Shown here in pieces: positions 49,271 through 58,590 of a DNA stretch of 64,000 nt. A program made the position numbers and the translations under genes. The notes under the pieces are model-generated. The model ran no database searches and was not told the DNA's origin. It saw only the letters and a program-made list of their open reading frames with translations. Source of the DNA: Owenia fusiformis (lineage: Eukaryota > Annelida > Polychaeta > Sabellida > Oweniidae); contig CAIIXF020000001.1 in assembly GCA_903813345.2 (NCBI GenBank), positions 2,480,001 to 2,544,000 on the forward strand. Reading direction: 5' to 3'. Every line of letters starts with the position of its first letter. Position 1 is the first letter of the stretch.

Positions 49271-52200
49271 CTAACGGGACCCTCTGCTACCACCAGAACC
49301 TGTATAAACACCATCAACATATAAACCATGCATAATATTGCACTGTGGTTCTTTGACTGTTTATTTTTAAGGTTTGATTGACTTACAAAAAAGTAATTTT
49401 GACGATAAACTTAAACCAAGGCATACCGTAGGGTCCTGACGATCTCTGGGAATAGTTACTGCTTTGCCTCACGGGGCCACCACTACTTTGGCCCTGATAG
49501 GTGTCACTGTACCCAACACTACCACCACTGGCTCCACCTAATATCAAATAGAAAATTCAAGTGTCAGCTTGTTATGATAGAGAATTAAATAGTTACTTTA
49601 CTGAAATGTTCACTTCAATTGTCTAGTTTACTTATAGACCAATAGTTTTACTTTGTCCAGCACTGTAAGAAGCATCCCCACCAGAACTGTATGAGGCAGA
49701 CTGTTGAGAGTAGTCTCCTCCTTGGACTGCCTGGGCTCCATAACTCCCCTGCTGGTTGTATCCCCCACTTGACGGCTGTGATGGCTGGCTTGACTGATTG
49801 TATCCACCTTGGTTGTAGGCTGTAGTAGACTGCTGGTTACCATAGTTTCCCTGTGCACTCTGCCCACCATATTGTTGTTGTTGTTGTCCACCCTGGTTAC
49901 CATAACCACTCTGTCCTTGGTTACCATAACTACTTTGTCCTTGGTTACCATAGCTTTGAGCTTGGTTTCCTTGGTTGCCATAATTTGACTGACCGCTCTG
50001 TTGATAGTTTTGGCCCTGATTACCACTGCCATAGTTTCCACTTTGGCCTCCAAAGTTTCCACCTTGGTTTCCACCCATGTTACCTCCTTGGTTTCCCTGG
50101 CCACCAAAGTTTCCTCCTTGGTTTTGGTTATTGTAGTTGTTGCCTTGGTTACCATATTGATTACCAGTATTTCCTCCAAATCCACCACCATAACCTGGAA
50201 TTATACAGTTGTAGGTTGAACATACCGGACATGACAGGTCTGAATAAAGCAATTAAAAGTGAAAGGAACTTTCAAACAATTCAAGGTTGATTTAGAGGAA
50301 CCAAGAGTTTTTGGAAAGCAGTACATGTATCATATCTCAACAAAAAGCTCACCATGTGAGCTAATAACCCAAGGAACATGAACAATACATAATACACAAT
50401 AAGTAATAACATTGCTGACTTTTTAGTATGAAAATAAAGAAGTTAATAATAAATAGAAAAAAAAAATACAAACCTTGATTTCCACCTTGGTTGCCACCCA
50501 TATTTCCTCCACCCATATTACTACCACCCATATTTCCACCTCCCATTCCCATATTTCCACTTCCCATACCCATATTACCACCACCCATTCCCATGTTACC
50601 ACCTCCACCACCACCCATTCCCATGTTACCACCTCCCATTCCCATGTTACCGCCACCTTGTCCTCCGCCCATATTTCCACCCCCCATATTGCCACCCTGT
50701 CCTCCCATGTTACCCCCAAACTGGCCACCACCACCACCTTGGTTGCCTGAAAGTGAAGAAAAAAGATTTCTAAAAGCTAAAAATGCAATACACCTATCCA
50801 ATATGGCATATTTTCAAACTCTTCATCTTGATATTTTCAACTTACATAAAACATATGGATATCTGTACAAGTTTCAAGCTACATATATTTAGGGTTGTGT
50901 ACTGGGAGGTTTTTATGAAGGCAATACAGAAATTTGCTTTCCACTCATTAGATAGAACCTCAGTAGGCATATGTAATACAGAAGAAAATGAAACAAAGTA
51001 AACATATCTGGTCTCTTATGAATAGATATATAGAAGAAACTGAAACGTACCACCAAAGTTGCCTTGGTTATTGAAGTTGCCGCCACCGCCACCACGGCCT
51101 CCTCTACTTCCTCCTCTGCCCCCGCGAGCTCCACCTCGGCCTCCTCTCAAGCCACCATCACCTCTTCCACCTTGTTGCTCATTATTCATGTTTTCTCTAG
51201 GTTCAGCCTTCTTGACATCAAGTGTATGTCCATTAATACGATGACTTCTTGTGAGTATCAACTTGTCTGCAATGTCGGTATCATGGAATGAGACAAATCC
51301 AAATCCACGACTCTTCCCGGTATCACGATGGGTCATCAAATCCAAGTTTTCAATACTTCCAAAATTTGAAAAATATGCCTGGAGATCAGACTCGCTCATA
51401 TCATCCTTGATGCCACCAACAAATACCTTCTTTGTGATAATATGTGCATTGGGTCCCATCTGTAAATAAAACAATATATTACATATATTGGTGACAAAAT
51501 TACGATCAACAGTTACAATTTTATAACCATGTATCTTTTACCATTCCAAATAAAATAAAATAAAATCTCAAAAAGATGATATCTTAAATACAGTAATAAA
51601 AAAATAGTGAAAAGTAACACCTCATAAATGGAACAATTTTCAAGAATCCTGTAAGTCATTATTTTCATGTTATTGAACCTCTGTAAAGTGAAAACTTAAG
51701 TTAACTGTACTTGAAAAAAGCATTTTTTTATCCAATAAACTTACAGTCTGTCAACCTTAATTTATGGAGAACTTTCTCAATTTGGGTGAAATTTCATGAA
51801 AACTCTTGTCTGCTCAATAAAGCATTTAGAGGTATATGCTTGAATCCACGACAGAAAACACAGAAAATATTCTTACGTCTTTGGGAATAGCCCTCTTAGG
51901 ATCGACTATCCTTCCATCTAATTTGTGAGGTTTCTCCTTCTGGCAGGCATCAACCATGCTGACCTTGGCATAGGTTACAAATCCAAACCCCCTGGACCTA
52001 AAACATGCAATAATTCAGTTCAGAATAAGTTAAACGTCTAACCTCATTGAATCAATGCAACCAATTGTGAAACATACCATTGACTTGTTACAATACTCGA
52101 TGTATGGCGTCAGAATCAAGTTCTGGTGATAACACCAACTACGAGTCAAGAATTTAGGCATATTTGTTTTGTAATGGGTGAACCTTTATAATTGCATATA

Positions 52201-56922: not shown

Positions 56923-58590
56923 ATGGGAAAAACAAAGGAAGAAGATTCTGCTGAGGAAGGTGAAGAAGAGGAAGAAGAAGAGTTTATTGTAGAGAAGGTT
57001 GTTGGTCATAGGAAGAAGAATGGAAGGACAGAGTATTATTTAAAATGGAAAGGGTACACAGAGTAAGTAAATCTTAATACATATTAAATAGTTCTGCAGT
57101 TATGAAAACAGTCATCTATTACATATGTTCACATTGAATCATTAAATATATAGTATATCATTCAGTTCTCTAATTTACATTTGTTTTGAACGTGTTTGAT
57201 GTAACCAAAGCTTAAAAACTCAAAAAGGTAGAAATAGTTATTAATTGTGGTGGTATAAGACCTTTAAGATTAAGTTGAACCTATGGCCATGATTTATTAC
57301 AGAGCCTATCCATTTTCTCACCCAGAATGGAGAAATATAAGGGTTGATGTTCGCAGTATTGATTAATGTTATTGATGTTAATCTTAGATTTTTATTATTC
57401 CAGAGCAGATAACACATGGGAGCCAAAAGACAATCTTGACTGCCCTGATCTGATAGCTGAATATGAAGCTAGCGTGAAAAAGAAGGAAGAGAAGAAAAGA
57501 AGTAAGGCAGATGATGACGATGGTCCAAGAAAAAAGAAAAAAGTGGCTGAGGTAGGTCTATTAAATCAACTTTAGAAAGAATTACCATAATATGCTCCGA
57601 TTAGCCATAACTTGGAAATCAATGTCATAGGTATCACATGGAGCTGTTACACTTTGGGTGGGCTCACCATTGACACAGATACTTTGAGGAAGATGGCTAG
57701 GCACGGCATGGATACAGATAGTTTAACAGCGAGATATTCCCTATAAGATAATCAAGAAACATTACATAAATTATGCCCAAAATTAGCCGCATGATGATGA
57801 ATGGTGGGGCTACATTCCTAATGTGACAGTTACTTTAGGCAAATTAGTAGAAGGTTCTCAAATTCTTTATTTTGTTGTTATATCAAATGTTATCTGTTTT
57901 TTTACTACTTCCTTATTTGACAGATTTTCAAATCAACTTAATATAAGATGAACATGTTGTAAAACCAGTATTAATGAAAAATACACAAAGGTCAAAAGCA
58001 TGTATAATGTACATTTAAACATTTCAAATATCATTTTAGGAAGAGGATAACAAACCACGCGGATTCGATAGAGGCTTAAATCCCGAGAGAATCATTGGTG
58101 CTACAGACAGCAGTGGGGAACTTATGTTCCTCATGAAATGGTAAGGTTCCATCTCATTTAAAATCAAATTTATTGCCATCTAACAGGTTCCTAAGATTCT
58201 GCGGTTGTTAAAAGGTTCATCCATGATCTTTAATCTATATTTCATAAGCAAGCAGATTTGGTCCAGAACAACCTCTGAGACAACCTCTTGATTATTGTTT
58301 GTTTATCTAATTTTATGATTCCACTTTTTCAAAACTTCTAAAATCTTAGAGTTGTTGTATCACCTGCTTTTTCAATGCTGGGGAATAGAAGTCATTGAGT
58401 TTGGTATAGTATTTGAACACTTTCCATCAATATTATAAACGGAACATACTTTTTCAGGAAAGACAGTGATGAGGCTGATCTGGTACCCGCACGACAAGCA
58501 AATATAAAATGTCCCCAAATTGTCATAGCATTTTATGAAGAAAGACTTACTTGGCACACACACAATGATGATAATGAAGACAATGATTAA
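56923..58590 (+). CDS. Heterochromatin protein 1 (CBX1/3/5 type), complete
   Basis: Coding exons 56923-57062, 57404-57551, 58040-58140 and 58458-58590 total 522 bases, 173 aa plus TAA. An acidic N-terminal tail precedes the chromodomain ([48 protein letters not shown]). The aromatic cage Y/F-W-W/Y positions ([20 protein letters not shown]) are present. A basic hinge ([19 protein letters not shown]) leads to the chromoshadow domain ([56 protein letters not shown]) and an acidic tail. It reads H3K9me2/3, dimerises through the chromoshadow and recruits PxVxL partners. Exon boundaries interrupt both chromo folds. It is head-to-head with hnRNP A/B. It cannot be split into CBX1, 3 or 5. Confidence 0.97.

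Follow-up and report, generated by a model that had tools for sequence, protein, structure and literature searches.

The window analysed here, a stretch of 64,000 nucleotides of the Owenia fusiformis genome, carries an hnRNP A/B gene on the minus strand and an HP1 gene on the plus strand. The two are immediate neighbours and lie head to head (Table 1), with 3,271 bp separating their start codons at 53651 and 56923. The initial annotation had described a gap of about 3.3 kb with no gene between the two ATGs, and we have now confirmed this. The gap has no stop-to-stop frame longer than 95 aa, and nothing in it reached the gathering score of an Rfam family; shorter frames lay outside the family scan.

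Table 1 Features of the hnRNP A/B-HP1 locus (positions in the window; o/e, observed/expected ratio)
Feature	Position	Strand	Remarks
hnRNP A/B gene, coding span	49271-53651	-	eight coding exons placed by eye
hnRNP A/B exons	53651-53640 (MVKE), 52379-52228, 51997-51877, 51459-51051	-	
hnRNP A/B exons, continued	50746-50474, 50194-49652, 49537-49427, 49299-49271 (stop)	-	
hAT-like nonautonomous element, hnRNP intron 1	52455-52937		8-bp flanking duplication CTATATAG
Proposed shared promoter (core)	53652-54190		CpG o/e 1.51; non-repetitive save for an edge match over the last 4 bases
Candidate noncoding HP1 exon 1	53860-53941 (start arbitrary)	+	donor CAG/GTTTGT at 53941/53942, score 5.89
Alternative HP1 exon-1 donors	54165-54317	+	54167 (6.16, in core); 54311 (7.18, in non-repeat 54294-54355)
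Short interspersed repeat	54191-54293		14 other places, 79-88% (all 15 candidates scored)
Element with 43-bp terminal inverted repeats	54356-54848		outer part matched itself alone among scored places
Nested element with inverted ends, inside 54356-54848	54450-54723		at least 39 other places, 96-100% (40 of 497 candidates scored)
Interspersed repeat	54858-55461		at least 39 other places, 87-96% (40 of 204 candidates scored); contains donor 55236
Foldback (inverted-repeat) element	55714-56474		at least 39 other places, 93-97% (40 of 1,848 candidates scored)
Splice acceptor upstream of HP1 ATG	56901-56922	+	T-rich tract, AG at 56916-56917, 5 bp, ATG
HP1 gene, coding span	56923-58590	+	exons 56923-57062, 57404-57551, 58040-58140, 58458-58590 (stop)

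The four coding exons of the HP1 gene encode a protein of 173 aa. Its N-terminal chromodomain (Pfam Chromo, 76.1 bits) and C-terminal chromoshadow domain (Chromo_shadow, 110.8 bits) are those of the HP1 (CBX1/3/5) class, and the solved chain closest to it is that of CBX5. When the whole genome (498 Mb) was searched with the chromoshadow family, matches were obtained at the HP1 locus only (two exon matches, all 15 candidates scored). The full HP1 protein gave 33 matches (all 88 candidates scored), 29 of which were at other places and were confined to query residues 3-121, that is, to the chromodomain and the hinge. No stray animal contig with HP1 was confirmed in the viral and prokaryote collections. 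On many contigs, chromodomain matches were also seen within long open frames (about 1,300-1,780 aa), which is suggestive of chromodomain-bearing retrotransposons.

The hnRNP A/B gene encodes 549 aa, and its reading frame is uninterrupted across all eight exons. A Pfam domain search located two RRMs within the first 232 aa. Among solved structures, the RRM region scored best with hnRNP A1 (216 bits) and A2/B1 (209 bits), the next relatives being a yeast polyadenylated-RNA-binding protein (157 bits) and hnRNP D-like (145 bits). The protein is assigned to the hnRNP A/B class by these tandem RRMs, nearest to A1 and A2/B1 by similarity scores rather than by a tree, and by its Gly-rich tail, recognized by eye. 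The model of the 3' part and the tail is tentative owing to the poor donors after exons 2 and 6 (scores 0.11 and 1.79, respectively). Intron 1 contains a nonautonomous element which we take to belong to the hAT family. The runner-up place in the genome by score (all 51 candidates scored) is a frame on contig C7, 40% identical over the two RRMs, and a 48-residue stretch 58% identical to hnRNP A/B was found at 58.22 Mb of C1, the contig that carries the pair. The hnRNP A/B-like gene on C7 (23526544-23527068) is a single open frame of 276 aa with two RRMs and is possibly a retrocopy. As judged from these sequence searches, the pair thus consists of the sole HP1 gene and the sole close hnRNP A/B gene found in the genome.

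About 60% of the gap between the two ATGs consists of transposon-like repeats. Outside the repeat elements 1,310 bp were counted, of which about 111 bp (near 56475-56585) match weakly, with 71-81% identity, at three other places. The nested element at 54450-54723 is very young. The place counts obtained in the searches with 40 scored candidates (of 1,848, 204 and 497) are lower bounds, and rarer repeats could escape such searches. The foldback element is built of arms of 243 and 87 nt with complementarity of 96% and 92%, respectively, and has one CpG in its 761 bp.

The window as a whole is depleted in CpG (o/e 0.39). Within the gap, only the stretch 53652-54190, which adjoins hnRNP exon 1, combines essentially non-repetitive DNA with undepleted CpG (o/e 1.51 vs 0.39 for the window, at a GC content of 31%). 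The other non-repeat stretches of the gap gave o/e values of 0.56 (54294-54355, one CpG), 0.11 (55462-55713) and 0.50 (56475-56917). When 1,270 overlapping segments of 539 bp were compared across the window, the peak signal (o/e 1.92) was found at 53451-53989, overlapping the core. The o/e of the core was reached by nine of these segments; seven start at 53351-53651 and two overlap the hAT-like element of the first hnRNP intron. The CpG-rich DNA at 54.36-55.46 kb is mostly repeat, and a promoter at 54.86-55.46 kb was considered and dropped because this stretch is an interspersed repeat. The repeat copy at 54858-55461 keeps 23 of 26 CpG sites, and 13 of the 20 other copies compared (from at least 39 places) keep at least 24. 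The CpG content of this stretch is therefore uninformative on methylation at the locus.

The core contains an E-box CACGTG at 53685 (five in the window) and an E2F-type motif TTCCCGC at 53871 (three in the window). No YY1-like site was found in 53652-54190, and the motif is common in the window (111 occurrences). The E-box, E2F-type and YY1-like motifs occur together in 33 of 6,344 sliding segments of 560 bp, all of them starting at 53320-53640. Short motifs of this kind are weak evidence. YY1, E2F and MYC motifs are described for the human HNRNPA1-CBX5 promoter in the available part of PMC4721113.

The splice acceptor located 5 bp before the HP1 start codon means that a noncoding exon is expected upstream. 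An acceptor lacking a proven upstream exon would look identical in genomic sequence if the HP1 mRNA were trans-spliced at 56917 and had no 5' exon of its own. However, spliced-leader trans-splicing is not known for annelids or molluscs, and we consider this origin of the HP1 5' end extremely improbable. In the mouse, the start codons of Cbx3 are located in exons 2 and 3 (PMC2877046, available part), and first introns of about 20 kb in CBX5 and about 1 kb in CBX3 are given in the accessible text of PMC4721113.

All 179 GT sites in the gap were scored as donors of the putative first HP1 exon. The initial annotation had suggested an exon ending at 53941, less than 300 bp from the hnRNP start codon. 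The distance, 290 bp, agrees with this, and GTTTGT donors are also used by hnRNP exons 1 and 5. The donor itself ranked 9th of 179, with seven sites scoring higher and one (56493) tied, so that it is only one of several candidates and an exon ending there is possible. Picking the exon by donor score alone proved indecisive, as 53941 is outscored even within its own stretch, by 54167. A first exon ending at 54167 or at 54311 would leave the reading of a promoter shared with hnRNP intact. The donors 54504 and 55236 (7.18) also outscore 53941 and both sit in repeats. The remaining higher-scoring donors (55518, 56729 and 56733) are all located where CpG is scarce, and they would favour an HP1 promoter separate from that of hnRNP.

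Such a promoter, located further to the right (e.g. at 55.0-55.5 kb in the repeat or at 56.5-56.9 kb), might now drive HP1 even if the pair itself is ancestral. This would be in agreement with the scores of donors 55236, 55518 and 56733, with CpG o/e values of 0.7-1.5 in 200-bp segments at 54.7-55.4 kb, and with the autonomous promoters known in intron 1 of CBX5 (PMC4721113, available part). The segment 54858-55461 is, however, an interspersed repeat, and both 55462-55713 and 56475-56917 are CpG-poor, in contrast to the stretch that adjoins the first hnRNP exon. We therefore regard a separate HP1 promoter as unlikely, although it deserves some weight.

By elimination, the rest of the gap being repeat or CpG-depleted, the HP1 promoter is most likely located within 53652-54190 and would be shared with hnRNP; on the same grounds, HP1 exon 1 is expected near 53.7-54.3 kb. 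The earlier suggestion of a truly shared promoter is thus favoured indirectly, by the elimination, which leaves this stretch alone in the gap. The donor at 53941 is outscored by seven others, of which 54167 belongs to this stretch as well. According to the proposed mechanism, both genes would be transcribed from the short CpG-undepleted region at about 53.65-54.2 kb, just upstream of hnRNP exon 1. Transcription of hnRNP would proceed leftward and that of HP1 rightward, the latter from a noncoding first exon with its donor at 53941 or close by (54167, 54311). The first intron of HP1 (about 2.6-3 kb) would have gained the transposon-like repeats, which would result in the ATG-to-ATG gap of 3.3 kb.

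The locus resembles the vertebrate pairs HNRNPA2B1-CBX3 (A2UCOE) and HNRNPA1-CBX5 in the gene families involved and in their divergent orientation. Further similarities are the HP1 start codon behind a splice acceptor, the CpG-undepleted stretch between the genes, the presence of E-box and E2F-type sites, and Hox genes on the same chromosome. Unlike the vertebrate loci, the Owenia locus has a repeat-filled ATG-to-ATG gap, an AT-rich core without a GC-rich island, flanking genes that differ from those known in vertebrates, and a Hox cluster 15.4 Mb away. A UCOE is characterized by a CpG island that is free of methylation and covers divergent housekeeping promoters, and it shields linked transgenes against silencing; in a bidirectional promoter, the divergent starts are separated by less than 1 kb. 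The divergent vertebrate loci are called sisters in PMC6842454, and an evolutionary relationship between the two was suggested in PMC4721113 (in both cases, in the part of the text available).

The genes flanking the vertebrate pairs belong to the NFE2L, SNX, SKAP and COPZ families. None of these was recognized beside the Owenia pair in a family search of the window and of 10 kb to its right, though such neighbours are not essential to the pair. The neighbour to the left of hnRNP A/B, tail to tail with it, is NUP155 (best E 8e-50; Nucleoporin_C match). To the right of HP1, up to 10 kb beyond the window, the minus strand carries frames of 184, 331 and 1,741 aa, none of them with a family match above the cut-off. 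These differences in the immediate flanks might be taken to mean that the adjacency is coincidental or arose independently in the Owenia lineage. However, with a gene number in the tens of thousands taken as background, this specific divergent adjacency would be expected by chance in only a few cases in 100,000, and a chance origin is very unlikely on this estimate. The contig shared with Hox and CNC bZIP genes also fits descent rather than coincidence, which we consider highly improbable overall.

Contig C1 (62.2 Mb, 12.5% of the assembly) carries the HP1-hnRNP pair, the Hox cluster and, at 52.41 Mb, a CNC bZIP (NFE2-type) gene, which was recognized by eye from its basic region. Eleven homeodomain matches form a run at 17.97-18.47 Mb; nine of them were read and judged to be Hox by eye. 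The chance of falling on the Hox contig is 12.5% for one locus and about 1.6% for two. The vertebrate HNRNPA-CBX pairs are linked to Hox, as the Owenia pair is. The available texts place the Hox cluster of O. fusiformis on chromosome 1 (PMC9977687) of its 12 chromosomes (PMC9539403), and NFE2-family genes close to each of the four Hox clusters of vertebrates (PMC2566581). According to the part of PMC7269912 available, the single chordate linkage group of the Hox clusters has its counterparts in three units that were separate in the ancestor of scallop and amphioxus, and because of this, vertebrate linkage is not a strict predictor of co-location in Owenia. SNX10/11 gave four matches in the genome, none of them on C1. 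COPZ was not recognized on C1; an adaptor-family search gave 11 matches genome-wide, of which the six read were judged by eye to be adaptor-sigma exons; one weak match, at 49.17 Mb of C1, was left without an assignment.

We consider it probable that the two genes represent an ancestral bilaterian HNRNPA-CBX pair with one shared promoter at about 53.65-54.2 kb. The Owenia locus would be the invertebrate counterpart of the vertebrate pairs, all of them derived from a single pair on the Hox-bearing chromosome of the bilaterian ancestor. The Owenia genome together with the published vertebrate data suggests that the pairing is most simply ancestral for bilaterians. The proposal of the initial annotation that the pair predates the bilaterian split is thus favoured, within this one invertebrate genome, by the single HP1 gene, the one close hnRNP A/B gene, their same divergent order, and the Hox and CNC bZIP genes on the contig, from which we infer common descent. 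Such a pair is similar to the deeply conserved animal gene pairs (microsynteny) in that the adjacency was apparently retained while the flanks differ. Unlike in typical microsynteny pairs, the likely tie here would be a shared promoter and not an enhancer in a bystander gene.

If the pairing is ancestral, a well-known chromatin-opening promoter of vertebrates is dated before the vertebrate genome duplications. HP1 functions in chromatin packing and hnRNP in RNA handling, and both are housekeeping genes. The Owenia version has a single HP1 gene and a single close hnRNP A/B gene, and provides a setting in which to ask why the genes stay coupled. More tentatively, the divergent HP1-hnRNP A/B promoter could be a chromatin-opening unit of at least bilaterian age, which would have stayed intact for more than 500 million years while the surrounding genes changed places and the adjoining introns filled up with repeats, and the vertebrate UCOEs could be its duplicated descendants. 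If this is true, the promoter unit couples a protein of heterochromatin to one that packages RNA. An HP1-hnRNP pair may be listed by Irimia et al. (2012). Among the entries listed from the openly licensed literature, judged by titles and abstract beginnings, no description of an HP1-hnRNP A/B pair in any invertebrate was found. Neither CBX nor HNRNP is named in the main texts of PMC8851819 and PMC6292497 or, concerning gene families near Hox, in the available part of PMC2566581.

Several other features were observed apart from the pair. Two tandem arrays are situated among the NUP155 exons, at 37257-37826 (67-bp unit, 8.4 copies) and at 39640-40060 (78-bp unit, 5.4 copies). A repeated stretch at L043 3278-4295 contains open frames of repeated peptide on both strands. 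On the minus strand of the window, at 27333-33781, two single-frame genes of the ASC (amiloride-sensitive sodium channel) family encode 574 and 567 aa, respectively.
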